Assembly (NCBI GenBank): GCA_021234155.1
Contig: JAJEKV010000020.1
Coordinates: 18,591,018 to 18,655,017 of the forward strand
Direction of reading: 5' to 3'
Length of the DNA: 64,000 nucleotides
Source of the DNA: Isoetes taiwanensis
Taxonomy: Eukaryota; Streptophyta; Lycopodiopsida; Isoetales; Isoetaceae
In this document: piece after piece, positions 1 through 37,540 of the stretch
Numbering within the stretch: position 1 is the first letter of the stretch
How the letters are laid out: each line of letters starts with the position of its first letter
Position numbers and translations under genes: made by a program
Notes under the pieces: model-generated
Databases searched by the model: none
What the model was told of the DNA's origin: nothing
What the model saw: the letters and a program-made list of their open reading frames with translations, nothing else

Positions 1-2097
1 AATATAATAAATTGCCCTCCTTCTTATATGAACGGAATGCTTCACGTTCTCTATCGGTGACGGGCTTCCCTACCCAAACTTTCCCAAATATTACGTAATT
101 GGGGATCTGTGGCCAAGGTCTGTTTCTATCCGCTTCCCAAACTCGCCGGTGAGTGTGGAAATGGCATTACAATGGGTGCGGGTTATGAAGGGATGACGTG
201 ACAAAGCATCCGCAAAACACATTGTGCTTTCCCGGCTTGTATACAATCCGAAGTCATATTCCTCGAGGAATTCCATCCATCTTCACGACCGGAGATTCAG
301 ATTGGTGGGTGGATAGATAGCGGAGACTCTCGATGATCCGTATCCAAATTGAAATCTTCTACCAAGAAGGTAGTGTCTCCAAATCTGGGAAAGCACGCAT
401 AACCGCTAGCAACTCGATCATGGGTAGGATATCGTTGCTCTGCATCGTTCATCTTCTTTGAATCGTAAGCAACAACTCTCCCCTCCTGCATTAAGACACC
501 ACCGTAGCTATCTTACTCGACGGTGGCTACCGATTTATCCTTTTAGGATCGGGCAAGGTAAGGAAGATGTGCAGATGTTAAAGCATCCTTGAGTTTCGAA
601 AGCCGACTTGGACTTTTGTTTTCCAATGTTCCATCCAATCCTTTACTTTCTCATGCCTTGTGAGATTAGTAAGAGGTGCGGCAATTGTTGCAAAATCCTT
701 AACAAATTTCCGATAATATCCGCGAGTCCCAAGAAACTCCAGGACCTCTCGAAACATTATTTGGAATGGGCCAATCCTTTATCGCTTCTATCTTAGCTGG
801 GTCAGTAGCAATTCCTTCTCTGACTGAGATAATATGCCCCAAATAGTCTACCCTCTGAGTGGCTTAACTTGCATTTAGAGAACTTGGCAAAGAGTGATGA
901 TGGCGCCTTAGCTTTTGCAAAGCTAATCAAGATGTTGTTCATGTTGCTGCAAGGTTTTACTATAGATGAGAATGTCATCAAAGAAAATGACAACAAAGTC
1001 ATCCAAGTATTGGCGAAGATGTCATTCATCAACCGCGATAAACGTTGGTGGGCGTTGGTCAATCCAAAAGGCATGATGTTGAATTCGTAATGCCCATATC
1101 CGTACGAAAAGCGGACTTATGGATGTCCTCTTCTTTAATCCTTATCCGATGGTACGGGGAGCTAAATCAATCTTTGAGAAATATTTTGCTCCTTGTAACT
1201 GGTCCATAAGATCATCTGCCCTAGGCAAAGCATAGCGATTCTTGATGGTATGCTTATTGAGTTGCCTATAATCAATACACATCCTTAAGGAGCCATCTTT
1301 CTTCTTGACAAAAGAATAGGAGCACCAAATGGTGAAACATCTTGGGCGAATAAACCCTACATTGGTAACTCTTGTAGTTGTTTCTTAAGCTCTCGCTAAC
1401 TCAGGAGGACTCATTCGGTACGGGGCTTTGCTGGTAGGCTTAGTACCCGGTTCAAGAGTTATCTCACATTCCACCCCTCTAAAAGGAGGAAGCTTGTGGA
1501 TCTCATCTGGAAAAAGATCGCTAAATTCTCGAAGAAGGGTAGCAATGTCCAGATGGTAAAGCGCCGACATTTTTGTCGCTTGTTTGGAGTCCGGACTCAA
1601 TGGAAGCAAGTTTAATGAGGCAAAGAAGTTCATTCTCGCGCATAGCTTTTCCTAGCTGCTTTTTCTTCGACATTGATTGCATGACGGAGTGTAATGAATC
1701 ACCTTTTTATCGTCACCGTGCTCCATTAGCGGCGTTGAAGGTGACCTCCGCTTCTCGCGCGGTCTATGTGGGCCCCGGCGACGCTAAAAACTCCATTCCC
1801 ACAATAAGATCATATTTGCCAATGTCCATTAACTTCGGCACCCAAGGCAACCGGGTGCTTTTGGCAACTGCATTTTAAAGGTTAATCTGGCGACCATGAG
1901 TGTGTGTCCGATCTTACCGCTAGCTAATGTGACCGGGCTTAGGTGGGATTTCAATGTTTCGGTGCAAGTACATCTGGTCATTCTAGGAGAAGCAAAATTA
2001 TGTGTACTACCCGTGTCCATCAAAATTATGAAGGGCTTTCTTGTCTACTTGGCCTATTGTAGAAATAATGAAGGTGACTTTCAGCGTTACTTTGTTT
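1..2097 (-). pseudogene. pol: pol (protease, RT, RNase H) of family A element, partial
   Basis: Order on the minus strand: aspartic protease with active-site DTG (MDTGSTHNFAS near 2020), the RT N-terminal region ([20 protein letters not shown], 1500-1430), RT core (MPFGLTNA near 1070; FFDD catalytic motif near 975-964, in a different frame), and RNase H ([15 protein letters not shown] near 490; DTDH near 345; ADALSRHP near 205). Compared with the plus-strand copy at 25099-27054 it has many short deletions and frameshifts. The integrase would lie left of position 1. Confidence 0.9.
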
Positions 2098-3401
2098 CTA
2101 TAGCGGCAAGAATATGAGACGCGCCATGAATGTACTTTCGGAGCCTCGTCTTCCCGCAGCAAGATTGGACTCCAAATCTTCCCAATCCAGGTCGGCCATG
2201 GCGGTTGAGCAAATCTGCGTGGCGTGCGGGCAGTGCATGAAGTGTCCAGGCCTCATGCACCTGTAGCATGCCTTATCCCGGCGGAGCTGTTCTCTGGCCT
2301 CTTTAGGAATGGACTGTAAGAGGCCCCGAATTTCCTTACCAGCATTGTTCTGCTTATCCGGCGTGCTAAAAGCAACTTTCTTCTCCTGGCGTCCATAAGA
2401 ATTGTGCTGAGAGGGCCCCGGACTTGGCGAACGGGGTTTGTAAGGTGTGGACGGCCGTGGCTGCGAGTAAGGAGCAGGTCGCGGATACTGGCTCCTTGGC
2501 GTGTCTTCCTCAAGGCTTAATGCCTTAGCTTCCGCCTCTGCTACTGACTTTGGGTCGATAGCCTTGACCATTCGTTTAATAGATGGGGCCAACCCTTCAA
2601 TGTAGCCCTCTACTGCTCTTTTCTCATTCATTCCTGGCACATACAACCTCAAACGCATGAATTCGTCAGTGTAGGCCTGCACGGACATGCCCTTCTGTTC
2701 CAACCTGTAGAAGGTCTGAATCTGTTGGCATTTGTGCGCGCGAGGCACGTAATGCGATTTAAAAGCCTTAGCAAACTTCCTGAACTTGCATCTGCTCCTA
2801 TCCAGGTGTTTAGCTCTGGCGTAACCCTTCCACCAAATCTGAGGCTCCGGTAAGGTTCGTGGTGGCGACCTTCCCTGTATCTTTCTCCGTCATTCCATAG
2901 GACTTCCGAATTCCTTCATTTTCGTCCAACCAAGATTCCGCATTCAAGCCTCCTCCGGATTTCCCATCAAACCGAGCCAACTTAGGTTCTTCCATATACT
3001 AGTGATAGTTTGTATCAACAGGTTTTTCGGTATTCCTTATCCTTACGCCTTGAATGGTCCTTTGTCGATGGCGAGGAACCCAAGAACCCGAAGTGGTTGA
3101 ATGTGAGGAAGCGGCGCTATCCTTAGAGGAACCGTTGCTGACGCTTAGCATGAGTCCTTCTCTGCATGCAGTGCGGGGCTAGCTCGGGAGGAGATGGTCA
3201 TTTGTGTGTGGACTCAATGGTCGCGGAGGTAATTCCGGTCCGTCCTCCGAAAGTATGTGGCGGTGGATTGGTATGCAACACATAAGCCTGTAACTCGCCG
3301 AGTTGCCTTTTCATTAACATCAATTCCTGTTCAGGGGTGAGCCTACTGGCGTTGGAGGGTGTTTGCCAAGCGGTACGCATAACCGGGCCTATAGGAATCA
3401 T
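2098..3401 (-). pseudogene. gag: gag of family A element
   Basis: The gag polyprotein packages element RNA into virus-like particles. The likely N-terminus is near 3401 (MIPIGPVMRT..., with a helical LTPEQELMLMKRQL). A broken middle carries EEPKLARFDGKSGG and AESWLDENEGI, typical of plant gypsy capsids. A 216-codon frame (2748-2098) contains RLEQKGMSVQAYTDEFMRL, the usual retrotransposon gag motif. It then has a Pro/Ser/Arg-rich linker and a zinc knuckle CYRCMRPGHFMHC, spaced C-x2-C-x4-H-x3-C, one residue short of the normal CCHC box. At least two frameshifts lie between 3200 and 2750. Confidence 0.85.
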
Positions 3402-3633
3402 TCATGAATATATAAGCAGATTTACATTAATGTACAATCCCTTTTTAATTTAATCGAAACAAAGTATATACAAACAGAAGACAATATTTGTATTTCATTC
3501 AAGTTGATTATAACAACGGGTTGATTGATACATGGATTGAGACAAAAGTAGGTATGATACAATGGGAACTTTTAAAGTTTTGCTTACACACAGCATAACC
3601 ACAACAATGAAAACACAACGGAAGAGACCAAGC

Positions 3634-3870
3634 CTAGGGGTTGGCGAAGGGGTACAGGATCGCGTAGCGGGTACTCTCCCGTACAGCTCGGACGAGTTTA
3701 TAGCGTGCCCAGGCTTGGACAATGATTGCTTGGTACTCCCATGTTGGGCTGATAATCAGAAGGTTAAAGAGCCTTCGCATCGCATAAAAGAGTTGCCAAA
3801 GATGGTGGTTGGCGTCCTCGAAGGCTTCGTGCACGGTCATATTCCAAGTGGTCCCAGTGCGACCGCGGGG
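3634..3870 (-). CDS. ORF-C, small unknown frame between ORF-B and gag
   Basis: About 78 open codons on the minus strand with protein-like composition, aromatic- and leucine-rich (segments NMTVHEAFEDANHHLWQLFY and WARYKLVRAVRESTRYAILY). The frame stays open upstream of the ATG at 3840. No family is recognised. It may be a remnant of the 3' part of the extra coding block of this element. The DNA between it and gag (3402-3633) and between it and ORF-B (3871-4371) shows only A/T-rich tracts and a TATATA run near 4340. Confidence 0.3.
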   Translation of the reverse strand, partial: PRGRTGTTWNMTVHEAFEDANHHLWQLFYAMRRLFNLLIISPTWEYQAIIVQAWARYKLVRAVRESTRYAILYPFANP

Positions 3871-4371
3871 GTCATTTTCAGATCCTCGAAAAGCTCGATC
3901 CCCCGAGGATGTTAACTATCTCCAGCCCTTTTTGTCGTGGTAGAGTTCCCCGGTGGCGGTGGTTCGGTTCCATAGCCTTCCTCCCACTCGGATATTCACC
4001 ATATCTCGCCGTCAGTAGTCCTGGTCTGGCGGCCCGGGATCGTCCCTCCTAACCATATCGGTGATTCTCTCCTCATATTCCCAAATGTTTTCCTCTGCAA
4101 CATAGTTGGAATAAATAGAGAACATTTTGTAATTCCATTATATTCTAAAGTTTTAATACTTTTGAAGAGGATGTCATAAAGAAAAAAAAACACACAATTC
4201 AATAATACTCCTCAAGAGAACTTTGTATTTAATAAGTAAATAAGGTACACCATTTGTCAATATGGTCCATTCAATTGCCAACCGAAAATCCCAGAACACA
4301 CATATATAGATATATAAGAAAAAAAACTAGCAAAACATATATATATATACATTTTTCATAGCAAAATTATA

Positions 4372-5811
4372 CTAGGAACTAGGCCCTGCCTCCTGATCCT
4401 TAGCCCTAGGAGGTGGTGGAGGCGGTCGGTGTCGCAGCAGAGTAACCCCAGGGTCCACTGTGGCAGCCGCAACGGATGCAACCTCTGGTGGATAGGCAAC
4501 GGCCAATGGGGCTGCCGTGAGGAGCTTCATACCCATCCAAGGCGCAATGTCCTGACCCAAGGCCGTTAGGGCAAGATCCCGTCGTACGAGTACATACGTA
4601 AACGTACGATAGGGAAGCTTCTTGTGGCCGGCCAGTGTAGAGAGTGCACGGAGGCCCCACCATGAAGCTTCAGCCTCTGGCGCTAGATCTCGGGCTATGA
4701 AGAGGACTTGTCCGTATTTGAAGGCCGACAAAAAGAAACGGGTAAGATGGTTACCCAGCACTTTCCCTTGCGAAGTCTCAGATGCTGCCACTTCTTTATC
4801 CAGGTCCATGGGGACTTCTTCCTCCTTGAGCTCTTGTTGCTCCTCCTTCTTGTGCACAAGGTTATGGTATAAGTCTTCACCCTCATCATCTGAGTCGGAG
4901 GGAACCTCCACCATATTAATGTTTGGGACGTGAGGTCCCATAGCCGTGAAGGCATCTGGTGCAGGTTGCGAAGCTGGTTCCTGCATCACGAAGTCACGAA
5001 GACGTAGTAGAGTCTCCGCCGGCTCTAGAGTCTCCTGACGGAACTGAAGGAGCTGGTGCACCTCCGGAGGAAGCTCGGTAGAAGTGAAGTCGATGAAATC
5101 ATCCATACAATACTCCGCAAGCTCGTAGAGTACATGGTCTTTGCGCTTGCGTCGAAATCCGGCCACCACGTGATACGTCCAGATAATATCATCCAAGAGA
5201 AGGTATTCCTGCCCCTGGTGATAAATAACTGGAAGGCCGTCTAACCCTGACAAGCCTATAGATGGGTCGCGGCGGTGGTAACTCCTCCGCTAGCTCTTTC
5301 CAGCGGGCAAAAGTAAGCCCATTCCGATATGCTTCGTCATCCCCTCCTCGGAGGATTCGGCAACTTGCCCTTCTCTCCCGGCAAGGTTTCATCCTCAACG
5401 TATTGGTCCATGAGGATGGCTAGATTTAAAGTAGCTTCCAGAGATCGCTGCCCCCGATCTTTGGACCAGCGGTAGATGTTTACCCCATCGGAGTTTCCCC
5501 TTGAGGGACATCATAAGCATGTGTGTCCCCGCCTAGCATCTGCCGAACTATCTCCCCGCTCAAATACGGTGGGGAGGATCCCTAGAGGAATACACACAGA
5601 GGAAGTATTTCCTCCATGTAAAGTCAAGGAAGCCGTGAGTCCGGAGATGCCGCTGCATGTTAACAAGGAGATCTATCGTTGGCATAGCAAAGGCTGCAAT
5701 GGGTCGAAGGGAACTGTGGATCCCATTTCTCTCCATCAAGGTACCGGGCGAAGCAACAAGGTCGGCGGCGAAATGGCGCTAGAAGGGAGGGAGAGGAAAA
5801 GAAGCGTTTAA
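4372..5811 (-). pseudogene. ORF-B, unknown protein; intact 293-codon C-terminal part at 4372-5253
   Basis: From 5253 to 4372 the frame is open for 293 codons. Upstream, coding-like sequence continues in other frames to about 5811 (blocks such as GDDEAYRNGLTFARWKELAE and TIDLLVNMQRHLRTHGFLDF), so the original protein was longer and is frameshifted near 5260 and several times further up. The intact part has an N-terminal helical region, an acidic centre (SDSDDEGEDLYHNL; KEEEVPMDLDKE), a second globular region and a proline-run tail (HRPPPPPPRAK). I recognise no known family. It lies between the histone-like frame and gag and is separated from the former by about 100 bp of A/T-rich DNA. It may be a second additional ORF of this retrotransposon. 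Confidence 0.5.
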
Positions 5812-5982
5812 AATAACTTACGGTCCCTTTTAAGCCCTCTTATTAAAGACGTCGGCATTTTTAATTTTAAAAAAAAAACATTAAAAAAAACATTAAACTT
5901 TTAATTCAAAATAAAAGCCTTTTTATTAATTATCACAAAAAATATGTACAAATGCGGATCCCTTAAAATAGGCTAAGGTTGC

Positions 5983-6300
5983 TCCCCGTATCCTACAGGC
6001 GAGGGCTAAATCCTTAGGCATTATGGTGACCCTCTTTGCGTGGATAGCGCAAAGGTTGGCATCACCAAAAAGTGCTACCAAGTAGGCCGGTGACCTCTTG
6101 GGCGCCAAAATTACAAAGGTGCGGAAGCGGAGATCGGTCTTAAATTGCTTGTGCGATCTCCGTACCCCTCCCTGAAAAAGCGACTTCGATCGGAAGGTCC
6201 GTGGACTTGAAATTTCGCGGATCTCCGCAATGCCCGCGATGCCGGCCGAAACGATGAGGCTTCGGCGCGGGCCCGAGGCCCGACGATGTTGGCACTGCGT
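5983..6300 (-). pseudogene. Histone H3-like sequence inside the retrotransposon, frame-broken
   Basis: The minus strand encodes recognisable histone H3 from the end of the tail (PTSSG...KPHR at about 6300-6251) through the histone fold to RIRG at 5983. The clearest blocks are FKTDLRF, AYLV, and [16 protein letters not shown] followed by LA-CRIRG, corresponding to alpha-1 through alpha-3 of H3. The stretch from KPHR to RIRG is about 280 nt, against 288 nt in a normal H3, so it is nearly full length. The reading frame changes several times between KPHR, EIRE, STDL, FQ, EIAQ and FKTD, so it cannot be translated now. Canonical features ([14 protein letters not shown], no loop-1 insertion) favour replicative H3 over CENH3. 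It sits between the PBS and gag of the family A element, with no intron visible. Confidence 0.85.
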
Positions 6301-6301
6301 C

Positions 6302-6619
6302 TTAGCCCGACAGAACCGGGGAGTTATCCACTCTCTCTGGCGCCTCCGGTCCGGAACTGGTCTTCTTCCCAAAAGCCCCGCCGGTCTTTAACTTATCCTT
6401 GTATTGACTGTAGGCCTTATGGGCAACTCCTTCCTTCGAGCTTAACGGTCGGATCGTGGGTTTTGGGTTCGAGCCACTCCCGGATGCACCTCCTCCCCTG
6501 TTGGTCCCGCTTGATCTTGTCGGGTCCCGCTCATCTTGCTCCAACTTCTCGCGCTCTTCCCGAGCTCTCCTTAGGTCTTCTTGGATCGAGCAAAGCTGGG
6601 CGCTGCGACGGCGTATCAT
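6302..6619 (-). pseudogene. Charged coil plus Lys/Gly/Ser-rich linker leading into H3-like frame
   Basis: A 105-codon frame. It starts with a probable coiled coil (segment SIQEDLRRAREEREKLEQDE), then a low-complexity Gly/Ser stretch and a basic tail with KTGGAFGKK. The basic part precedes, in a shifted frame, a PTSSG...KPHR motif that starts the histone-like region. It may be the decayed N-terminal part of the same product as the H3-like segment; histone H3 tails are likewise Lys/Thr/Gly-rich. The connection is inferred from order and spacing, not from an open frame. Confidence 0.4.
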
Positions 6620-6680
6620 TCGGGGCGATGGTACCTTTGTGGCCGCGGACCCATATCTATCCGAATAGTGGTCGGATAGT

Positions 6681-7262
6681 CTATGCTAATGTCGGGGATC
6701 TCTCCCCGGACAAAGCTGTTGGAACCCTCATGCCCGGTGGTATGGGGAACCTCAATGGCTCACGCCATCGATGGACGGCAAAGCCGCTCGAGGTATCTGC
6801 CATACTCCCTACCCCGGCCGCGGTGTCAGCCCGCTCAATCTCCCGGTGGTCGTCCTCCCTGGCAAAACCCCTAATACGGTCGGCCTCCGTCCTGACATCT
6901 TCCTCCTCCGTATGGCCTTCCTGTTCGGGAGGATAAAATTTGATGAGCATCATCACCATATCAGGTTGCTCAACAAGGGTATATGGGAGCTGGCGTAGGT
7001 TCAGCCGGATGAGGAATGGCTCTGAGAAGTGATAGACAGGATATGGAATCCTATCGTTGTTCTCAAACCTATTGACCAGCTCATCCAACAAGATGTCGAT
7101 GAGGGCTGGGTCAGTAGCCATGTGCTTAGCAATCATGGCGTAGATCTCCACGATGCTCATGGTGGTTGGATCTGGAGCGCTCTTGGTGATGGCCATAGGG
7201 AATAGTGAGGCGCTGGCAGCGAAGAGGATGGCAAAGGGGGCGCTAGGATGCACAAGGCACAA
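6681..7262 (-). CDS. ORF-A, unknown protein between primer site and gag
   Basis: An open frame of 193 codons; the natural start may be the internal ATG near residue 35 (MSIVEIYAMIAKHM). The first 100 residues look globular and helical, rich in I, L and D, followed by an acidic/arginine-rich segment (EEEDVRTEADRIRGFARED) and a Gly/Pro-rich tail. I recognise no domain. It is the first frame after the primer-binding site of the family A element and is followed, with frame breaks, by the coiled-coil and histone H3-like frames, so the three may once have been one reading frame. It could be a captured host segment or a family-specific additional ORF. No similarity to gag is visible. Confidence 0.45.
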   Translation of the reverse strand: MCLVHPSAPFAILFAASASLFPMAITKSAPDPTTMSIVEIYAMIAKHMATDPALIDILLDELVNRFENNDRIPYPVYHFSEPFLIRLNLRQLPYTLVEQPDMVMMLIKFYPPEQEGHTEEEDVRTEADRIRGFAREDDHREIERADTAAGVGSMADTSSGFAVHRWREPLRFPIPPGMRVPTALSGERSPTLA

Positions 7263-7918
7263 GGGCGCAGGATCAAGGTCCTGTCCGGGTGCGATGGCGG
7301 AGGGCGGCTCGGTTGGAGGCGAAGAAGCAAAAGCAAATGACGTAAAAATGGTTTGCTAAATGGCCAATTAACTTTTAAAATTTCAAAATTTTTCTTATTA
7401 ACTTCAAAATTTTATTATTAAAAAAAAAATTATCGGGGGAAATACGGCGCCACATACGATTCGAAGCCGATGGCATTATCACGGGTTTTACGCTTTCGGT
7501 GGGTGTCATCGAAATGCAAGCGCCGAAGTTGACTGGCGGGCCGCGTTGACTCGAAATCGATTGCGGGTCCCGACAAAGATTTCGGGCGCTTCTAACTTGA
7601 TCGCAGCGACAAAAAGCAAGCGGCGCTCGAATTCGTTTTGGGCTGCCCTTGACTATTTTTCGCTGGAGTTGATTTGTTTTAGGGTAATTCTGTCGCCCAA
7701 TCCAATGGAGCCATCATCTTTGTCATTTGGGTTACCCATCGCACCTCGCTAGGCCTCAATCCTGGCCCCTCCACTTCAAAGCTACAATTTCTTAACTTAA
7801 CCTAACACCAAACCAAACAACAAAGAGAACTAACGACACATTGACTTAGCCTCCTCCTAACTACCGTGCTACGAGTTAGTGTTTGGCCAGTGCTATGATT
7901 TCGAACAACCGAAATCAC

Positions 7919-7931
7919 GGCTCTGATACCA
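7919..7931 (-). other. Primer-binding site, initiator tRNA-Met
   Basis: One base after the LTR end, the minus strand reads TGGTATCAGAGCC. This is the complement of the 3' end of plant initiator tRNA-Met including CCA, the standard primer of many plant LTR retrotransposons. It fixes the orientation and the LTR boundary. Confidence 0.92.
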
Positions 7932-7932
7932 C

Positions 7933-9541
7933 TGTGACGCTCCCAGAATATATACGACCCTCGGACGTATACATACGGGGACTTTCCCCTCCCATGGCAA
8001 TCATCTCACCATGAGCAGGGCCCTCCGTCTATTTCGGGCCATCTATGAAATGAGGCCCGAAGAAGGACACGAAGGGGTCATTCGGCCCACGCCTTCAATG
8101 GGACTCCTACGTCGCGGAAGCATGAATACAAGGGTTAGCACACGCGAATAATATACATAAATAACCACCCACGAAGGGTGGCGATCCATCAATATACCAA
8201 CGGCATAGAATATGCATCTAATCCTAAGAAAACACCCAAACCCCGGGTTCTACCCCGCTCGGGACTCCCGTGGGGATCAACTCACTACCGAGCCTCAAGA
8301 GATCAGCGCATCGAAGTCTTGGCATGGCGTTGGCGGCATAGAACATTGGCTAGGGTTGTCCACTCCATCCGCCCCTCACTGTGCACACTTTGCGGATGGG
8401 TCAATTCATGCTATGGCTTTGCTATAGCCCGGGAGACATAAACTTCGGGGCATCACCCTCCGAGCCTACTCGAGGTTCATGGCCTTTGGTCCGATGAGGC
8501 AGCCCGTGGGGAAGCGTCCCCTTCGAGAATCCGCGGTGGTTCCATGGGTGAGCTAGAGAATACGTGCGCATCGGCCCCCCGCCAGGTACCCAACTTACTC
8601 ACCCTAAATCTACTCAAAGTGCAAGGTGCTCCATACGGATCACACCTTCCCACCCGAGGGTGTGTCGGACCCATACCCGCCCCCTCGTGACCCGGCTGCT
8701 CCGGGCCCTAGCCCAGGGAGTCTCGGGGAGCCTTGTATGCTCATGCAAGACCCCACCCCTCATGTCCCACTTGTGTTCCTTGTGCAGTGCTAAGCCCGAC
8801 CATAGCATCTAAGACCGGTGGGTTCTTGTCGCAGGCCGCAATTAATGGAACTATCTGGATGCTATCTAGGAGCATACTACAATACACGGTTGAGGCCTCT
8901 ACCCCCGTAATCCCCGTTTGAGTCAAATTAAACAAAGAGCTAACAATCCATCCTTTCGTAGTAAGAAACAGAATTGAATATAAAGAGAACTTGTTTGTAC
9001 AATCAAGGGTTAGTTTCTATGATTGATTCACAAAGAGAACAGAGAGAGACGGACACAACCAAGTGTTAACTAGAATTCACATAGCCACCTACCTGAATTC
9101 TGGCTGGACTCGTTTCCATGGGGCGCCTCCATCTTCTGGGAGTTGAGAATTCAGCTGGTACTTCACAGGAACGATTGTTAGGGTGATCTTCTGCAAGTGT
9201 CTGATGGCGCCCAGCTACTGGCCTTCCTTGGTCGATCTTCGGGAGTCAATCCCAGGGATAGGGGTCAAGTTGGCATCCAAACTTGGCAATCCCCATGCTC
9301 CCCACTCGATTGGGGCAGGTGGCGCCTTCCCAAATGGTAATTAGCCTAATTTCCTAGGTTATAGGTTATTATTGTTAATGTGTTAAATTAGCATAGCTAA
9401 TTTAATCCTTTTTTTTTAAGGTAACCCCCTAGGTTGCAATTAAGTTCCCATGCCCCCATGGTAGTGTACCTTTAGGGAGTGACGTGCTTGTATTTGTACG
9501 TGTCCCGTATAGTAGGCCGTATAAATACGTGGAACGTCACA
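7933..9541 (-). repeat. 5' LTR of the minus-strand family A element
   Basis: This 1,609-bp LTR begins TGTGACGTTCC (minus strand, from 9541) and ends with CGTCACA (at 7933), the expected TG...CA termini with a 7-bp inverted repeat TGTGACG/CGTCACA. Its ends and internal blocks, for example the CTAGGGGGTT segment and the CCATGGGAGGGGAAAGTCCCC segment, match the plus-strand LTR that ends at 37520. Short frames inside it (for example at 8.2-8.8 kb) are shadows, not genes. Confidence 0.9.
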
Positions 9542-10155
9542 AATGTCTTCACTTGGTTCTTCAACATAGCATCTTCTTTTTCTGCAATATGAATAAGATT
9601 TGATGGCACCTTGCCATGTTGCCATAGCAGGGCAACACTGCAGTTGAAGCGTTATTTGAAGACTTTGGATTTCCTTTTCTTTCACGCTGACGCAGTTTGC
9701 TGGAGTCAATTGCCCATGATCTTTTGGTATTGTAAAGATTGTCAATTCTTGACATGTAACTACGATTATATTTGAATACATATATTTTTCTTTGATATAC
9801 ATTATTTATCTCTTTATGAATGTGTACCCTGTTAAAGCTAAATATCATTGTAAAGAAATCATCCAGATAAAATGCAAATAGCCTTGCATAATGCCAAAAT
9901 TATGAAAAAAATGAGAAGAATGCTATTGAAAATGTGCTAAAGTCTAAATGGATAGCAGGACCACTTATGACAGATGAATAAAGATGGAGAAAGGATGCAC
10001 CTGTCATGGAAACACACAAATAAGTTAATCTTGACCTTTGCAACTCTGCCATGATGGTGAAGCTGAATTTGCAGAGTGCACATTTAGGAAAATAAAATGA
10101 GGAACACATGGCTAAATGGAGGGCAGGACCACAATGAGACAGATGAATGAGGATG
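9542..10155. other. Non-coding flank with a 55-bp imperfect repeat
   Basis: No gene is seen. A segment of about 55 bp (GCAGGACCAC...GACAGATGAAT...GATGGA) occurs at 9942-9996 and again, imperfectly, at 10112-10168. The sequence is otherwise AT-rich. Short minus-strand frames here have no protein character. Confidence 0.5.
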
Positions 10156-10396: not shown

Positions 10397-11305
10397 CTAA
10401 TTGGTTGCTGCTTTAATGGTGACTCTATAAGCCCATAGACCATCCACCAGTTTGACATGCCAATCCTTTTGATTATCATCCACTGTTTTCTGCAAAATGC
10501 TTTTCAAAACTTTATTAGTAGCTTCTGCTTGACCATTACCTTGGGGATAGTAGGAGGAGCTCTTGGTATGTTTGACCTTAAGAATAGTCAACAAATTAGT
10601 AATAACTTCATTCACAAAGGGAGTACCTCTATCAGAATGCAATTGTAGAGGAATGCCAAACCGTGCACAAATATATTCATGTAAAAACTTTGTTGTTGTA
10701 ATAGCATTAGCCTGTCTTAAAGGAATTGCTTCTGCCCACTTGGTAAAATAATCTGTAGCTACAATAATGTGCTGATGTTGTCCTGCAGAAGGGGGGTTAA
10801 TAGGGCCAACATAATCCAGTCCCCATATTTGGAAGGGTCCTGGAGAAATGATAGGATTTAATGCAGCTGGGAGGAGGATCCTTTTGCCAAATATTTGACA
10901 CTTATGGCAAGATTTTATAGCAGTATAACAATCTTTAAATATTGTAGGCCAATAATAACCTGACCTGAGAATTTTCTTGGCAGTAGTATCTCCAACAAAA
11001 TGGCCTCCACATATTCCTTCATGCATTTCTCCGATGATCAGAGCGGATTCTTCTTCATTGACACACCTCAGTAATAGTCCATCCCTGTTGACTTTACATA
11101 AAACATCATGAATCATTTTAAATTGCCTACATTTTTCTTTAAATCTCCTTTGCTGGTTCGAAGTCAGTCCTGAGGGCATCTCCTTGAATTGTAGAAAATT
11201 TTTTATAGGTAGCTGCCAATCCTGTTGATTCTGCTTTTCATCTTCTTCCTGTAAATAAGCTAAGGCATCCACAAAGTCAACAACCTCTACTGCATCCTCA
11301 TGATC
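10397..11305 (-). pseudogene. Integrase fragment of gypsy family B, minus strand
   Basis: One open frame carries an integrase that inserts element cDNA into chromosomes. The zinc domain HHCC is visible (MHEGICGGHFVGDTTAKKI, then SCHKCQIFGK). The catalytic core follows with D (GLDYVGP), D (HSDRGTPF) and E (GNGQAEATNKV), spaced as usual. The frame ends at AATN near 10397 without the C-terminal domain. The end of RNase H lies upstream, joined near 11305 to unrelated sequence. Residues of the active site are intact, but the element is truncated on both sides, with no LTR found. The same family is present in plus orientation at 14.6-16.7 kb. Confidence 0.88.
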
Positions 11306-11316
11306 AAGGAAAATGT

Positions 11317-11455
11317 AAGGCAAGGGGACAATGATGAGATTGCAAAAACTCAGACCATCTCTTGAAAGGCTTAATGAAGGCTGCAATGTCCTTAAGAATG
11401 GGATTAAACTAGATCCTTATCTACCCGAGTCTATAGAAGCAAATTTTCTATTAGA
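11317..11455 (+). repeat. Copy 1 of a duplicated 139-bp exon segment
   Basis: This segment (CAAGGGGACAATGATGAGAT ... ATTTTCTATTAGAC) is repeated at 11619-11757 with a few substitutions. Copy 1 directly abuts the integrase fragment, and a short AGACATCAAATGCTTGA repeat follows at 11454 and 11476. Copy 2 lies inside the open frame of the next feature. Confidence 0.8.
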
Positions 11456-14599: not shown

Positions 14600-16680
14600 C
14601 TATCTTGCATTGTCTCTGTAGAGAAAAAATAAAACCATCAGGATCTGTATTGACTATAGAGATTTAAACAAAGCCACCATTAAAGATTGCTATCCATTAC
14701 CATTTATAGAGGAGGTTTTACATGCTGTTGCAGGTAAAGATATATATTCTTTCTTAGATGGTTTCTCAAGTTTCAACCAAATAAGCATAAAGGAGGAAGA
14801 TCAGCCAAAGACCTCATTCATCACACCATGGGGAACATTTGCCATGAAGAGGATGCCCTTTGGATTAACGAATGCATCTGCAACATTCCAAAGAGATATG
14901 GACACAATTTTCAAAGTCATGCCTGCCAATGCTTTTCGTGTCTTCTTGGATGATCTTTGCTTAGGAACCTCCCTCAAAAGTCATTTTGATGTTCTAACTA
15001 AGTTGTCAGCTTGAATCCAAAAAAATGCGTTTTCTTGTCTTCAAGAGGAGAATTGCTTGGACATGTGGTGTCTACAAAAGGCATACATGTTGCTGAGGCC
15101 AAGGTTGAGGCTTTCAAAAGTTGGCACCTCCCAAGACACTCAAACAGGTAAAAAGTTTCATGGGAATGACCAGTTTCTTTAAGAGTGTATGTCCCCCACT
15201 TCTCACATACTATGAATCCAATTTCTAACCTCACAAAGGTTGGAAAATTTTCCAAAAATGAGAGCAAGCACATTTGATTGATTGGAATGAAGAGTGCCAG
15301 GAGTCTTTTGACAAAATCATCAATGCCATCTGTAATTCCATCCTGCTAAAACCTCCTGATTTAGAAAAGCACTTCAAAGCTTATACCAGTATCACTAAAA
15401 GGGCAATTGGTCTTGCTTTCTACAAGAGGATCATGTAATTGCTTTTGCAAGCAAAATGTGGTCAGACACTAAGCTAAGATATCCTAGACTCGAAAAAAGT
15501 GCAGCAGCTCTCATGTTTCTAATAGAGAGGCAGGGACATTTGCTACAAAACAACCAAGTTCAGGTCTTTATGAGGCAAAATCCCTTGTCACTCCTCTTTG
15601 CTAAAAAGCAACCCAAGGCAAAATTATGCAGGTGGGCCTGTAAAGTTCAAACCTATGATATTACAGTCAAAGTGGTCAATCTGGTGGAAAATCCCAGTGC
15701 ATATTTGCCTTATGTTCTGTTTGAACACGAGGATCAAGATGGTTTGTGTAATGATGATCTTGTTACTAACTTGGTTGCTTTTGGTGCACGAGACTTAGAC
15801 TGGCAGTGTGAGATCAGAAGTTACCTTGAAAACAATGAAGTGCCAAAGAATTTGAACAGCAGTCAAGAAAGGAGATTTAAAGATAAATGCAAAAAATTGA
15901 GAGAAGCAAATGCTTATGCTATTGCAAGATTTCTCCATGAAAATATTTGTGTCAGGTTTGGAATTCCTTTTAAGATTATCTCTGATAGAGGGAGTCAGTT
16001 TATCAATCAAACAATTACACTCTTGCTAACCACTTTGAAGGTCAAACACACTAAGAGCTCGTCCTATTATCCTCAAGGCAACGGTCAAGCAGAGTCAACC
16101 AACAAAGTTCTCAAATCAATTCTGAAAAAGACTATCAGCATATCAAAGAAAGATTGGCACCTAAAACTCCATGATGCACTTTGGGCCTATAGAACCACAA
16201 TCAAAGCATCCACAAGGCACACGCCTTTTAGTTTGGTTTATGGCATAGAGTCAGTAGTGCCTGTTGAATTAGAACTTCCTTCACTTAGATTGGCATACCA
16301 AATAAATCTAGAAATGGATGAGGCTCTAAAAGAAAGATGTGTGAGATTGATGCAGCTTGAAGAACACAAGTATGAGGCAGAGAATGCTGTTATGATGAAA
16401 AAGGCCAAAGACATTGCCGCTTTCAAAGCAGCTCACAAACTCCAAGGTACTCTGAAAATAGGTGAGTTAGTCTTGAAATGGAATAAAGCAAGGGAAGAAA
16501 TAGCATCCAAATTTGAAAATCTCTGGGAGGGGCCTTTTGAGGTCATTGGCACAACATGAAAATATTCTTACTAGTTGAGGATAGTTGATTCTTACTAGTT
16601 GAGGGATGTGTCTGATGGTAGAGAATCGCTAAATCCTATCAACATTCTGCATTTGAAAAAGGTATTGGCAACAACATGTT
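14600..16680 (+). pseudogene. pol: pol of gypsy family B, plus strand, internally deleted
   Basis: RT begins near 14630 (IRICIDYRDLNKATIKD), with [32 protein letters not shown] and a VFLDDL catalytic motif near 14940. Frameshifts follow around 15000-15450. A 367-codon frame (15456-16559) has the end of RNase H (LRYPRLEKSAAALMF; AKLCRWACKVQTYDI), then jumps at KDKCKKLR to EANAYAIARFLHENICVRFG. Compared with the 10397-11305 copy, about 130 residues containing the integrase zinc domain and first catalytic Asp are missing; the second Asp (SDRGSQF) and Glu (NGQAESTNK) remain. The C-terminal GPFEVIGT, then NPINILHLKKV near 16640, mark the end of integrase. Dead copy; LTRs were not identified. Confidence 0.88.
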
Positions 16681-24241: not shown

Positions 24242-25098
24242 TGTGACGTTCCAAGTATTTATACGGTATACGTATAAATATACTGATACGTCACCCCGTA
24301 AAGGTACGCCACCATGGGGTATCGTAACCTAGGGGGTTGACCTAAAAGGGATTAATTTAGCTATGCTAAATTAATTATTAAGGATAATAACCTATAATTA
24401 AGGAATTAATGTCTAATTAGTTAAATTAAGTTAATTGATTACTTGGGAAGGTGCCACGTGGCCAAACTCGATTGGCTAGCATGGGAATGCTAACTTGGGC
24501 CATCAAGGTGGATCACTACCCCCATTTGACCCCAAAATCGAGCCAGGAGGAGGAGCAGTTGAGCGCCCAAGTACCTGGAACTGTTGTTGAACACCCCAGT
24601 TGTTGCTGAACACCAGATTACTGAGAGATGGAGGCGCCTCATGACAATGGCTCAAGTCGAAACTCGGGTTAGTAGATAATCTAGTTGATATCTTTAAGGC
24701 TAGCGCTTCAGTTAAGTTATTTGAGTCTTCTCTGGTTGTTCTTACTTAGGATTAACCCTTCTTTGATATTTAGGATTTACATTTCAATTATGGATTATGG
24801 TTATTATGGATGGATGAATCTATGAAAGTATCTCTGTTAGTCTTCCGTAAAGCAGGGATTAGAGGGGGGTAGAGACATCTGTGCTTCATGCTTTAGTATG
24901 CTCCTAGTAGCTCCCTTAATTCCCAATTAATGCGGCCTGTGCACAAGAGACCACCGGGTCATGGATGCTATGGGATTGCTTAGCACCAGAGAAGGGACGC
25001 AGTGGTGAAGTGCGTGTGGGGTCTTGCACGAACATACAAGGCTCCTGGGACTCCTACAGTGGGCTAGGCCTGATAGCCGGTCACGTAGAGGGCCGGGT
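24242..25098 (+). repeat. 5' LTR, truncated at 857 bp
   Basis: It matches the 3' LTR from its first base to GGGCCGGGT at 25098, where it jumps into protease-coding sequence. The equivalent position in the 3' LTR is 36786, giving 857 bp in both when the Helitron is removed. About 734 bp of LTR are lost. Confidence 0.92.
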
Positions 25099-27054
25099 CG
25101 CATTAACCTTAAAATGCAGCTGCCAGGTGCACCAGTTGCATTGGGTGCCGAGTTAATGGATATTGGCAAATATGATCTGATTGTTGGTATGGAATTCTTG
25201 GCATCTGCAAAAGCCAATATCGACTGCGAAAAGCGGGAGGTTACCTTCAACGCAGCTAATGGAGCCCGCGTAACTATTAAAGGTGATCCTTTAAACCCCA
25301 TTATGCAGTCTATGTCCATCAGGCAGTTAAATAAGGCCATACACAAGGATAAGCTTCTTTGCGTCATCAGACTTGCCTCCATTGAGTCAGATGCCAAACA
25401 GAAGCAAGTAGTTGATGCCTTGCCAGAGGGCATTGCTGATCTTCTCAGGGAATTTAGCGATCTCTTTCCCGACGAGATCCAGAAACTTCCTCCGTTCAGG
25501 GGGGTGGAATGTGAGATAGCTTTGGAACCAGGTACTAAGCCTACCAGTAAGGCCCCGTACCGTATGAGTCCCCCTGAATTGGCAGAGCTTAAAAAGCAAC
25601 TTCAGGAGTTATTAAACCTAGGTTTCATTCGACCTAGTGTTTCGCCTTTTGGCGCTCCTATCCTATTTGTTAAGAAGAAGGATGGCTCCCTGAGGATGTG
25701 TATTGATTATCGGCAACTCAACAAGCATACGATCAAGAATCGCTATGCTTTGCCTAGAGCAGATGATCTTATGGACCAGTTACAAGGGGCCAAGTACTTC
25801 TCAAAGATTGATTTACGCTTTGGGTATCACCAAATAAGAATTAAGGAGGAGGACATCCATAAGTCTGCTTTTCGCACTAGATATGGGCATTATGAGTTTA
25901 CCGTTATGCCTTTTGGATTAACTAATGCCCCCGCAACTTTTATGCGGTTAATGAATGATGTCTTCCGACAATATTTGGATGATTTTGTTGTTATTTTCTT
26001 TGACGACATTCTCATCTATAGTAAGACCCTGGAGGACCATGAGAAACATCTTCGGTTGGCCCTACAAAAGCTAAGACACCACCAACTCTTTGCCAAGTTC
26101 TCTAAGTGCAAGTTTGCCACTCCGAAGGTGGATTATTTAGGCCATGTCATTTTAGCAGAGGGCATTGCTACAGATCCGGCAAAGATAGAGGCAGTGAAGG
26201 ATTGGCCCATCCCGGGTAATGTTTCAGAGGTCCGAAGTTTCTTAGGGTTGGCAGGGTATTATCGGAAGTTTGTTAAGGATTTTGCAAAGATTGCAGCACC
26301 TCTTACTGATCTTACAAAGCATGAGAAAGTGAAGGATTGGATTGAGCATTGGAAAGCAAAAGTCCAGGGAGGTTTCCAGAAGCTCAAGGATGCGTTAACA
26401 TCCGCACTAGTCCTCACATTGCCGGACCCGGAAAAGGGTAAACTAGTAGCAACAGATGCCAGTAAGATTGCTACCGGTGGAGTCCTAATGCAGGAGGGGA
26501 GGGTTATTGCCTATGATTCAAAGAAAATGAATGAGACTGGACAGCGATACCCTACCCATAATCAGGAGTTGTTAGCTGTTGTCCGTGCTCTGCGTATATG
26601 GAGACACTACCTTCTTGGTAGAAGATTCCAGCTAGATACGGATCATCAGAGTCTCCGTTATCTAACAACCCAACCGAATCTCAACCTCCGTCAGAGGAGA
26701 TGGATGGAGTTTCTCGAGGAGTATGATTTTGAGATTATGTATAAGCCTGGGAAACACAATGTGGTTGCGGATGCGTTGTCACGCCATCCCTTGGTATCCC
26801 GAACCCATTGTAACGCGATCTCCACACTCACCAGTGAGTTCGGAAAACAGATAGAGCAGACCTTGGCCACGGATCCAGAGTTCCGTGAGGTGTGGGATAG
26901 CCTGGCTAAGGAGGCACGCACAGATAAAGAACGTGAAGCTTTCCGTTCGTATAAGAAAGAGGGCAAATTGTTATATCACAAAGACAAGTTGTGTGTACCT
27001 GAGACTTCAGGAGTGCGTAAGCTTATTCTCCATGATACACACAACACCCTATAG
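25099..27054 (+). CDS. pol: pol: protease end, reverse transcriptase, RNase H
   Basis: The open frame (676 codons if counted from 25024 in the LTR; no authentic start remains) begins with the protease C-terminal part (DLIVGMEFL). RT follows: [44 protein letters not shown] and the catalytic FFDD at 25996-26007, where most gypsy RTs have Y-x-D-D. The RT connection carries [17 protein letters not shown]. RNase H has its acidic residues in [15 protein letters not shown] and DTDHQSL. It ends at 27054 where one extra base breaks the frame inside the integrase zinc domain. Catalytic residues look intact. Same family as the minus-strand relic at 1-2097, which also reads FFDD. Confidence 0.93.
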
Positions 27055-28246
27055 CTGGACATGCAGGTTTCATGAAGACCTACTTTAAGATCCGCTCCAG
27101 TTATTTTTGGCCTTCTATGAAAAAGGACATTGCCAGGTATATTAAACAGTGTCAGGTGTGTCAGCAAACCAAGGCTGAGCAATTAAGAAATTCCATGAGA
27201 GTTGCAACCCCTGGATGTGCCCGACGCTATGTGGGAAGTCATAACCATGGATTTCATTGTAGGCCTTCCACGTACTCTCCGTGGATATGATGCATTGATG
27301 GTAGTGGTCGACAAACTGTCGAAAATGGCTCATTTCTTGCCATGTCGTACCACCGATACAGCCTTCGATACCGCTTTGTTGTTTACAAAGGAGATCTTCA
27401 GATTGCATGGAATGCCACGGGTTATTGTATCCGACAGGGATCCAAATTCGTAAGTGCATTCTGGAAGGATTTCTTTGCCACATTCAAACCAAGCTTGCTA
27501 TGAGTACCGCATATCATCCTCAGACGGATGGTCAGACAGAACGTACCAATCGTATTATAGAGGATATGCTACGCAGTTATGTGTGGAGTAAGCAATCACA
27601 ATGGGCTGACTATATCTATTTGGTCGAATTTGCCTATAACAGCATGAAACAGGGGTCTTCCAGGATGTCTCCCTTTATGATAAATTATGGTTATCAGTGT
27701 CTTACTCCAGACACATGGCATAATCCCGTTTCTAAAGTGGAGGTTTCTCAACAACTCCTCTTCAAAATGCAAGCTTTGGTTGAAGAAGTTCGTGATTACC
27801 TACTGACTGCACGCAGTCGTTAGAAGAGTGTTGCAGATAAGCACCGAACCCCACGAGTCTTTCAGGTGGGCGAGTCAGTTTGGCTTAAGATTAAGGTTAA
27901 ACAAGCCAAGCTTAAGATTGGTAACTGCAAGAAGCTGGCACCCAGATGGGTTGGACCGTTCAACATCATTGAACGTGTTGGAGAGCAGGCATATCGTTTG
28001 GATTTGCCACCCCGCTTGAAGATCCACAAGGTCTTTCACGTGAGTCTTCTGAAGCAGCATACCCCGGATCCAGAGGAGATCTTGGATACACCCACCCTTC
28101 TTGAAATGACAGAAGAGCACTATCCGGACTTCATGCGGGAATCACAGGGTCGCACCATCAACGATGCTATCAACCCCGCACCCGGCGGTAAGCTCCAAGG
28201 CTTGATTCGTCGAGAATCATGTAGTAGAGGGGTAGATGCATCGTGA
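27040..28246 (+). pseudogene. Integrase of the family A element, frameshifted
   Basis: The zinc domain spans the frameshift (HDTHN, then GHAGFMKTYF and CQVCQQTKA). The catalytic core has Asp at 27250-27252 (TMDFIVGLP), Asp at 27433-27435 (VSDRDP) and Glu at 27539-27541 (TDGQTERTN), in two different frames. A stop at 27823 separates the C-terminal domain (GPFNIIERVGEQAYRLDL; HKVFHVSLLKQHTP), which stays open to 28246. At least three frame breaks are visible near 27045, 27200 and 27450, plus the stop. After LLKQHTPDPEEILDTP no chromodomain is recognisable, so assignment to chromoviruses is not supported. Confidence 0.9.
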
Positions 28247-28823
28247 TTAATAATAGTTACCGATGATGAGATCACTTTCGTGTTCTCTAGGACGTGGTGT
28301 ATTGTTAATGTCGGCATGACCGCGAATTGCTTGGAAAGCATGTAGTTGATAGGCCACGTTCATCCCGGCTATAATAGGAACATGACCATTCCTTACGCCG
28401 CAATGAATTGCGAACTATACGCATGATAGCTTCCCTTGTAGATAAATTTGTCCTTTTATTCTTATAGGGGGTGGTCCCTTCAACCACAACCTATTTATAT
28501 TATCTATAGATACTAATGTATGGACATGTGCATGCTAGTGAGCAGTACGTGACCTGCCCATGTATAGAGGGTTGCTGATGACCTGACTTCTACAGTTTTA
28601 TTTTGGCTACATGTGTTACCTTTTTGTCACTGTGATGTTTGATATTGGACTATGGTCCCTAAACCTTTTTATGATAAGTATGTGAAATGCACCTTGGTGC
28701 TTAAACTATTTGATAATTCAAGTTCTAATGTTATTACCTTCAGAAATAAGGAATTATCTTCCTTCTTCTATGTATAATTCTCATATTACCACTAACCCTA
28801 ATGCTAAGGACAACATTATTTCT

Positions 28824-28836
28824 AAGGAGGGGAGAA
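28824..28836 (+). other. Polypurine tract
   Basis: AAGGAGGGGAGAA lies directly before the 3' LTR start at 28837, the normal plus-strand priming site. 28247-28823 is non-coding 3' internal DNA with no recognised feature. Confidence 0.85.
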
Positions 28837-28982
28837 TGTGACGTTCCAAGTATTTATACGGTATACGTATAAATATACTGACACGTCACCCCGTAAAGGT
28901 ACGCCACCATGGGGTATTGTAACCTAGGGGGTTGACCTAAAAAGGATTAATTTAGCTATGCTAAATTAATTATTAAGGATAA
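28837..28982 (+). repeat. 3' LTR, first segment (before Helitron)
   Basis: 146 bp matching 24242-24387 and interrupted at AAGGATAA by the Helitron. The remaining LTR resumes at 36076. Confidence 0.93.
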
Positions 28983-31900
28983 TCTTATTGTTTAAATTTG
29001 GTTTTTCAGGCAAGTGGAAAAATTTTTGGATTTTTTTTCCCGGTTCATTTTCTAAGGTTTCAAAGGTTTTAACTGCTGGAAAACGTTTTCGGTATTCCAA
29101 AAATCGGGTGTGGCTTTTCCTATGATTTGGAATTTGCATTCTATTTATTCGCCCAGTTTGGAGCATTCGGTGGTATCCTCGGCATGCAGGCCATGGATAA
29201 TCCAGGGGCAGATATATTGGGTTGTTATATGAATTTGATCTCTTTTGATTTCTGGTAGATATGATGTTCGTGATGATAGCAGATAAGGAGCTTTGCTTTT
29301 TCGAAATGGTCATGCCTGTGAGCTTTGTGAGTTTTCCCTTTCCAGTTCTTTTTTCGCTTCCTATTCCTTTCTCGACCGGATTTGTCCCATATTTTCTACT
29401 CCTAAACTACTTTCATCTGATTTCATGAAGCTTTTTCCTTTGGAGAATAAATTGTGGGGATACTCGCTGGAATGATTTGGTTGAAATAGACCTAGCTCAT
29501 GATTCAGTTGTTCGAGCTAGGGGGGAGGGCCATAGTGGAGCTACGACTATGGAAACGCTTCTTGCAAACACCACTATGTCTTACGAATCAGGTCACAGAT
29601 CGCATATATTGAATTAACTTTTTGTCTAAAATGATTTCGTTGTAGTTTTTTTAGCCTTAAATTTTGTCTTGAATTCCTTTGCGAATGTTTAGATTTGTTC
29701 ACTTATTCACTTCCATGGCTATAAGAACAAGTAAATCATCCTTTGCTTCTACTTCTTGAATGTGTTCACTTATTCACTACCATAGCTACAAGAACCACTA
29801 AATCATGCTTTGCATCTACTTCTTGAATTTCTACAGCTTGCAATCTCATAACTCTATTTCGTGTGTTTTCCATGTCTCTATCATTCTCAGAGTTACAAAA
29901 GTGTAGCAGAGGGCCACTTTCTTATTTAACAGCAGAACATATTGTACTGTGCTTATTAACTTAAGTGTTTCTGAAATGGAATTCGAAAGACAAATTTTTA
30001 CTGTATTATTGTACTGTTGTGCTATGATATCAATGTGCATTGTGATTTGTGAACCAATTCTGCTTTGTGTTTGTGGTTACATACAAAGTACAAATCAAAG
30101 AAAGCTGAATGTAGTCAGAGAATCTCTACTCGCAGGTCTTGCAACACGCAGTTGCATGAGGTACACACTTCAATTAGTTTACATAAGCTTACATAAGACT
30201 TTGTATAATGCATGGCGAGTTAGTGCATGTTAGATATTGTTTGAGTGCGTTTATCACTTGATTAGATGAATTGGCTTTAGATACAGATACAGTCGCCCAA
30301 CTGGACCAGGTATTAAATCTATAGTCAAAGTCAGCAAATATATGTGTTTCCTATGTTCTCTATGTTCCTGTGTGTTTCCTGTGTCTGTCTGCCAGTACTG
30401 CCATTGCAAGATCCCTTAGTTCCTTTGGAGGTGGATAGTTCAATGAGGTAAGTTAAGCTTGCACCCTTTCCAGATGCAGCCAAAGAAACTACTTGCATGG
30501 CTTAGCCATGAGATGTACATTAACGATCGTGGATTTACAGAGCAAGACTTTTATCTTTGCAATTGTCACATTTTTCATTCTTAGATATTTGCAAGGCAGT
30601 AGACAAGTGGCCTCATCCAGGATGTACATTTTTAGGCATTGCAGACCTTAGAATTGCAAAAATATAGCAGAAGGCCCCTTTCCATTCAATAGCAGAAGAC
30701 ACTGTAATGTAACATGGTCTGAGCTATTCCCAATAATGATACGAGTTATTGCCAATATCCTATACTTACTAACTACATGTTATCTGATTGTCTCTAATCA
30801 CATAACAGACTTTTACTATTCTGAAAGTTCAAAGGGTTTATTGCAGCTATAATTTTCGAATCACAAGACCAAAAGCATCTTTGATTTCCCATGACAAGTA
30901 GGCCACTAAGAGGTTCATATATATCAAGCTCTAATGCCACATAGTGCCTTTGAATATCCAGCATCCTAGCCACTGTAGATAGAATAAGCCACTGTTCATG
31001 TTCCCTATTTCTGTGTTATGGTGCATTAGAGTTATATAGTTCAATGAGATCAGATAAGCTTGCATAGGTCTTTGTATGTAGTAGAGGGACAGTTAATAGA
31101 TCTCAGATGTTGCTTGAGGATGCATATTAGTTAAGGTGCATCTACATCAAGAGAAGTACCTTAGATTGGGTATAGTGCCTAAGATATGGATTGCGTTATA
31201 ATCTTTTGATATATTTCTTTGGCGCATGTTCATTGTTTGCATCCAGAGCTTCAGAAATCTTCCTCTCATCAGTTGCATGCTCCAGTTTCAAAGCAAGCTA
31301 TTATTCTCAACAATATGTCCTGTAGTCACATCAAATCACAAGTAGGTTGGAAAATATCAAAAACAGTGGCCATCAACTTCTCAAAACTCAGGTGAATATT
31401 GAGTATATTCATTTCGTTCCTTATATTTATGTCTTTGAAAGTTGGCCAGTATGTACTTATTGGCATCAAGCTTCACATCAACGAATCCCGTGTACTTACT
31501 TTATAGTTTCAATGCCATAAAGTCTCCACACCTGTTTGTTCTGTTGAGCTAAGTTTAGAAAAATGTTCTTTCTGGTCAACCTGGCATTCTTCTGAACCAT
31601 CCAGCCCATTTTACCACAAAGTTTGTATCGTTGATTGCATCTAGGAACCTTCTTCAGGCAACTCAGACTGCTTTGGAGCTTGCTCACCGTCATATAGTAT
31701 TTAACACAATTGTTTATTTCACAAGGATGTAATTTGGACCTGGCCTTGCTTAGAAGAGCGTCCACGGCACCGCAGAGTTTGCATCTCTCATCTCAACTAA
31801 AATCCGCTATGATGACCTCAGTGCCATGCTCAGCAGTGCCCTCCCTCCACTAATCTATAGCCCCTTCTGTTGAATGGTCTAATATATTTGCTCCGTTTGT

Positions 31901-36064: not shown

Positions 36065-36075
36065 TTCATTACTAG

Positions 36076-37520: not shown

Positions 37521-37540
37521 GAGGAAGTTGTTGTCGACAT

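Follow-up and report, generated by a model that had tools for sequence, protein, structure and literature searches.

Known elements and viruses with comparable features

Known plant chromoviruses typically start with gag. The Isoetes taiwanensis element described here shares with them its TG...CA LTR ends, a tRNA-iMet-type primer site, the series Gag-PR-RT-RH-IN and a chromodomain behind integrase (RT was compared by similarity search), but it differs in having several kb and three extra ORFs before gag, the first of which ends in a histone H3. The nearest precedent is a Ty3/gypsy element of the orchid Phalaenopsis, which encodes an AlkB-type m6A demethylase (PMC9289625; also PMC12786077). That element is similar in that a domain of host type has become fixed in an extra ORF and has persisted over several replication rounds, and dissimilar in its domain, in its plant lineage and in carrying no histone. 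Additional ORFs of plant LTR retrotransposons are described in one survey as conserved in most copies of a family, their more usual place being between pol and the 3′ LTR (PMC7264820), whereas the extra ORFs of the Isoetes element precede gag.

Single histones have been reported for viruses, among them a bracovirus H4, a DSLPV1 H3 and a Sylvanvirus H3, with a fold mostly 73–89% identical to that of the host (PMC9145170). The Isoetes case is comparable in that one host-like histone (84–89% identity here) has an altered alpha-2 chaperone site, and some of the viral histones likewise have extra N-terminal sequence. However, their carriers are DNA viruses, whereas here H3 ends a protein of ~450 aa and is carried by an LTR retrotransposon. 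The word "histone" is absent from the main text of PMC7264820 and of a review of giant transposons, as well as from the main texts of the I. taiwanensis genome paper (PMC8566536) and the I. sinensis paper, while "retrovir" and "retrotranspos" are absent from the main text of the viral-histone review (PMC9145170). No retroelement-encoded histone was found among the open-licence papers searched, as judged by titles and the openings of abstracts.

Structure of the element

The window, meaning the whole 64,000-nucleotide stretch of I. taiwanensis DNA that was analysed, was originally predicted to encode H3 on the minus strand inside a Ty3/gypsy element. This was borne out by a tblastn match of host H3 to positions 6243-5983 on the minus strand (81.3 bits, E 1.5e-21), by a Pfam Histone (PF00125) score of 49.2 bits (cut-off 26.4) on the stop-to-stop frame 6387-5926, and by an LTR pair with a target-site duplication around the locus. 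A chance match to H3 was ruled out by shuffling, as the top score with host H3 in block-shuffled windows (n=20) was 26.9 bits compared with the observed 81.3.

The carrier was found to be a chromodomain-type Ty3/gypsy element of ~13.1 kb end to end, lying on the minus strand. Comparison of the LTR pair places the 5′ LTR (TGTGACG...CGTCACA) at 7933..9541, and its partner 3′ LTR, 93.6% identical, lies left of the window at C1019:18587417-18589043 (= L029:4400-6026). A 5-bp target-site duplication, AATGT, is present at 9542..9546, with the same letters left of the 3′ LTR in L029. Directly behind the 5′ LTR the sequence TGGTATCAGAGCC can be read at 7919..7931 (minus strand), which we take to be a primer-binding site of the initiator-tRNA-Met (tRNA-iMet) type.

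The first ORF (ORF1; 7355 to about 5975) begins with an N-terminal domain without known relatives (6681..7355, minus strand), which is 70% identical to ORF1 of the intact copy L023. It is followed by a charged, basic linker (6302..6685, minus strand) and by the H3 core (5983..6262, minus strand), both frame-broken in the window copy. The predicted position of H3 between primer site and gag was therefore correct, but H3 is not a gene of its own, as it forms the last ~100 residues of the longer ORF1. That the H3 is frame-broken, as had been predicted, was also seen: the core begins near 6262 with KPHRFRP..., in a different frame from the rest, so the window copy is broken, and this copy of the element is dead. 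It has the T107A residue and the sequence "DLAL" in common with L023.

Behind H3 there is an A/T-rich spacer (5771..5970, minus strand; 72% A+T in the window copy), which is common to 20 copies fetched from the genome. Two orphan ORFs follow on the same strand. A piece of the first part of ORF2 at 5560..5778 matches L023:5496-5921 by eye, the main part lies at 4372..5289 and was detected in 19 of the 20 fetched copies, and the ORF3 region at 3621..4149 has its counterpart at L023:7028-7552. In L023, where they also lie between ORF1 and gag, neither ORF2 (L023:5496-6671) nor ORF3 (L023:7043-7537) has a Pfam match, and ORF2 has an apparent internal repeat by eye (LPVVQHQG.../LPVIYHQG...).

The gag gene lies at 2098..3401 (minus strand), with Retrotrans_gag / Ty3_capsid in 2889-2098, and decayed pieces of pol (protease, RT, RNase H) occupy 1..2044 (minus strand). 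Pol runs on left of the window to integrase and a chromodomain (L029:6504-7133), giving the order LTR, ORF1 (N-domain, linker, H3), ORF2, ORF3, gag, protease, RT, RNase H, integrase plus chromodomain. In this single element, Pfam chromodomain PF00385 scored 30.9 bits in L029:6504-7133 (cut-off 25.1), and by its sequence the chromodomain resembles the plant group-II type, as defined in PMC3350952. Pfam matches on the frames of a second copy, L021, were gag, protease, RT, RNase H and integrase in that order, the integrase core scoring 30.3 bits, slightly below the cut-off of 32.6. For L023, gag and protease were matched, the LTR pair is 95.4% identical and a 6-bp target-site duplication, GTGACC, was identified by eye.

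Recurrence in the genome

When the genome was searched with Pfam Histone, 8705 first-look candidates were obtained; the best 150 were scored, and all of these exceeded the cut-off. The first 15 of the 150 match the model from position 2, and the eight retrieved from among them (L001-L008) proved to be ordinary full-length H3. In the remaining 135 the match begins at model positions 4-25; by hand count, 36 have it within an open frame of at least 400 aa. Twenty of these 36 loci were fetched, chosen for a high H3 score and long frames. Every one has an uninterrupted stop-to-stop ORF1 of 428-494 aa: the N-domain, which has no known relatives, is followed by a basic linker and then by H3 as the last ~95 residues. 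With probes made from the window ORFs, ORF2 was found in 19/20, gag in 16/20 and a long LTR match in 17/20, with their relative order conserved, such that the family has the order LTR-ORF1-ORF2-gag-PR-RT.

A search with the N-domain gave 2786 first-look candidates; 150 were scored and all 150 match at 62-100% identity. The family thus has at least 150 N-domain places in the genome, and the first-look counts suggest many more. As a sample independent of H3, 11 of the 150 places were picked at intervals down the list, and in 10 of them H3 followed within ~1 kb downstream, on the same strand. The eleventh, L041, keeps a linker motif, after which the sequence diverges. In one of these copies (L040) ~0.5 kb of other sequence interrupts the H3, and a complete open H3 core is present only in L034 and L035, and almost complete in L039, which indicates that most copies chosen by N-domain are decayed.

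Three subfamilies (A, B and C, the last being one copy) carry H3, their N-domains being ~35% identical to each other. The recurrence of H3 in sister copies, raised as a check in the original prediction, was thus observed at the same place in 20/20 copies of the first choice and 10/11 of the second, and the reading of H3 as a gene of the element is supported.

Selection on ORF1

Rates of change differ between the parts of ORF1. Median NG86 dN/dS in subfamily A (66 pairs) was lowest in H3 (0.040; dS usable in 66 pairs), followed by the N-domain (0.089; 49 pairs) and the linker (0.237; 65 pairs). For subfamily B (21 pairs) the medians for H3, N-domain and linker were 0.009, 0.122 and 0.117 (19, 21 and 21 usable pairs). 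Codon models (IQ-TREE, GY+F3X4) gave an omega for H3 of 0.058 in A (12 copies), 0.029 in B (7 copies) and 0.031 for all 20, values that are biased downward as the copies were picked for good H3 and long frames. The corresponding values were 0.168 (A) and 0.163 (B) for the N-domain, and 0.314 (A) and 0.215 (B) for the linker. Comparing regions within one frame suffers less from this bias, though the H3 score was one of the criteria for the choice.

Against omega=1, H3 gave a 2dlnL of 217.8 in A and 129.4 in B (best of five kappa values, same tree). The dN/dS check proposed at the outset therefore yielded values far under 1 for the H3 of the 20 open copies, and strong purifying selection on H3, stronger than on the other parts of ORF1, is shown on these copies. 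Between A and B the N-domain is at the median 36% identical and the H3 core 85%. Compared with host H3, the median pN is 0.10 and the median pS 0.92, with synonymous sites saturated.

Conserved and altered features of the H3 core

The element H3 is 84-89% identical to host H3 in the 20 copies, and all of them agree with the host at 66 of the 95 core sites, with the run N108-M120 and loop 1 invariant. Pfam Histone scored 131-144 bits on three whole ORF1 frames, and in a PDB search the 60 listed of 179 matches were all H3. Eight sites were taken to be H3-H3′ contacts and ten to be DNA contacts. All eight of the former are conserved in 20/20 copies, as are seven of the ten DNA-contact sites. At the other three DNA-contact sites, R63 is found in 19/20, R42 in 13/20 (otherwise K) and K64 in 8/20 (otherwise R). 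Changes cluster at 57-64, 86-89 and 101-107, and also occur at 121 and 124.

The centromeric variant CENH3 has a diverged core and a longer loop 1. A CENH3 derivative was considered and rejected, as loop 1 is without insertion and invariant in 20/20 copies, and the element H3 is thus not CENH3-like. The alpha-2 chaperone site (87-90) reads HAIL in 7 copies, FAIL in 10 and FAVL in 3, compared with SAVL/TAVL in the host. Two viral H3s have TAIL here, and the site is considered likely to be critical for the choice of chaperone, according to PMC9145170.

The linker was also considered as a shortened H3 tail, for which RTK..STGGK is suggestive by eye, but its homology to the tail showed no excess over shuffles in 11/11 copies. 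As the linker is no more tail-like than shuffles, a loss of K9 or K27 is not claimed. Searches with the N-domain gave nothing usable among 5.8 billion proteins or in IMG/VR, only matches of E 0.09 or worse in Pfam and only matches of E 0.27 or worse in PDB. A protein search with the whole of ORF1 was dominated by matches to ordinary H3. The N-domain of the window copy has no Pfam match, and its predicted structure, modelled alone, has a mean pLDDT of 38.8 with no usable fold.

Origin and possible exchange of ORF1

An unrooted DNA tree was built from 27 cores (the 20 copies, L034, L035 and five host cores). Subfamily A, subfamily B and the host each form one group (support 97/99, 100/99 and 100/98, respectively). 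The phylogeny that had been proposed as a check thus separates element from host H3, but, being unrooted, it is by itself no proof of a single capture. One fusion is favoured by the homology of the N-domains in A, B and C and by T107A, common to 20/20 copies; most likely H3 was acquired from the host once, before the three subfamilies diverged.

Over 200 bases after the H3 stop, the spacer has 64-79% A+T and a longest A run of 5-16 in 20/20 copies. It may be what is left of an mRNA end, so that a captured H3 mRNA is a reasonable guess as to where the domain came from. A poly(A) tract flanking H3 had been named as a sign of a one-off insertion; an A/T-rich stretch is indeed there, but, being common to all 20 copies, it does not show such an event.

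Distances of N-domain and H3 are correlated (Mantel r 0.95, 0 of 2000 permutations). In 3 of 120 gag-bearing pairs, L021 (A) against L016, L017 and L024 (B), gags are close (pS 0.28-0.34) and ORF1 differences are saturated (N-domain pS 0.87-0.89); L021 is without detectable ORF2. Such a combination suggests, on sequence distances, that ORF1 was exchanged between gag backbones, with frame-broken gags in the set adding noise.

Possible role of the histone

Retroelements are silenced via marks on H3. An element with its own H3 under strong selection, in a protein that has otherwise diverged, allows a test of whether chromatin supplied by mobile elements serves them to fight silencing or to exploit it. 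We give a probability of roughly 60% to the reading, based on sequence comparison, that the H3 of ORF1 would pair with host H4 and go into or onto chromatin, where it would provide a tether or a barrier. ORF1 would be translated as the first ORF of the element RNA. Its H3 domain would fold with host H4, as H3 needs a partner and the H3-H3′ and DNA-contact residues are largely conserved. Host H3-H4 chaperones would then carry the fusion protein to the nucleus and into or onto chromatin, with N-domain and linker as its cargo. The gain could, speculatively, be a nucleosome-borne tether that holds element complexes on replicating chromatin for integration. Equally speculative, and not separable from the tether, is a barrier by which copies might stay expressed via seeded nucleosomes with a foreign H3 N-terminus. 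A narrower form of the proposal, in which chaperones build ORF1 and host H4 into chromatin so as to mark or shield copies or to steer integration, with the integrase chromodomain alongside, is put forward tentatively. Were ORF1 in chromatin, a retroelement would be both supplying a histone and possibly reading histone marks.

The fusion protein could also act off DNA as a decoy that ties up H3-H4 chaperones or H3-modifying enzymes and so weakens host silencing. The altered chaperone-facing alpha-2 site in 20/20 copies and RKS-like motifs seen by eye in the linker of some copies would fit such a role, but the H3-H3′ sites and most DNA-contact sites are conserved, which a decoy would not need, and we consider it unlikely. 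Packaging, in which ORF1 and host H4 would condense the element's cDNA or RNA within the particle or the pre-integration complex, is more doubtful still. The linker is basic, H3-H4 binds DNA, and Marseilleviridae histones are virion proteins (PMC9145170). However, weak Pfam matches below cut-off (E 0.005-0.04) suggest that Gag has a zinc knuckle itself, and ORF1 is a separate ORF outside Gag.

A one-off capture, for which the original prediction allowed, would mean that a host H3 mRNA was copied by chance into one element and had no function. The broken window copy and the A/T-rich stretch behind H3 would suit it, and capture of host genes by plant LTR elements is known (PMC7264820). It is already refuted by recurrence and selection: H3 is at the same place in 20/20 and 10/11 copies and in three subfamilies, omega is 0.03-0.06, median pS against the host is 0.92 compared with a pN of 0.10, and the A/T-rich stretch is common to all 20 copies. 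A host H3-variant gene beside, or amplified with, unrelated LTR elements might be thought of, given an N-domain without relatives found in other elements or proteins, but it is likewise refuted by the LTR pairs and target duplication, as ORF1 lies between LTR and gag in both the window element and L023, with both LTRs seen in each, and the ORF order is conserved in most of the 20 copies.

With this element, the range of host-like histones of the viral kind widens from DNA viruses to include LTR retrotransposons. Its many natural H3 variants would allow mapping of the histone surfaces that a parasite must keep.

Related and neighbouring sequences

A related element lies on the plus strand of the window at 24242..28983, with LTR sequence joined straight to protease and with pol DNA ~89% identical to that of L021. 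ORF1 with its H3, ORF2, ORF3 and gag are all missing, and a pol frame of 681 aa is open. The loss of ORF1 and gag beside so similar a pol indicates that ORF1 is dispensable in cis, at least there. A further LTR-like stretch of the family is found at 36073-37521 of the window; compared with the LTRs of L021, L023 and the window element, its identity is about 79-88%.

Direct repeats were noted in two of the loci. L022 has one of 2.2 kb (L022:278-2529 and 6078-8312; 95.6% identical) containing LTR and leader, which is possibly a nested or tandem relative, and L024 has one of 0.68 kb (L024:6359-7035 and 9025-9706; 99% identical) upstream of ORF1. At L015:1152-1358, outside the focal element, a second and strongly diverged H3-like C-terminus lies behind an acidic coil (26.9 bits, Pfam cut-off 26.4); it possibly represents another H3-bearing family or an old relic.

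Integrase-like frames at 10397-11416 (minus strand) and 15399-16559 (plus strand) of the window appear by eye to belong to a different Ty3/gypsy lineage, and a 112-bp repeat occurs at 11345 and 11647 beside the first of them. A probable host gene is present at 57997-57401 (minus strand), with a weak bromodomain match of 17.5 bits (below the cut-off of 21.7). The L023 element ends 2-3 kb away from a Frigida-like host gene (L030:6268-7419, minus strand; Pfam 190.8 bits).
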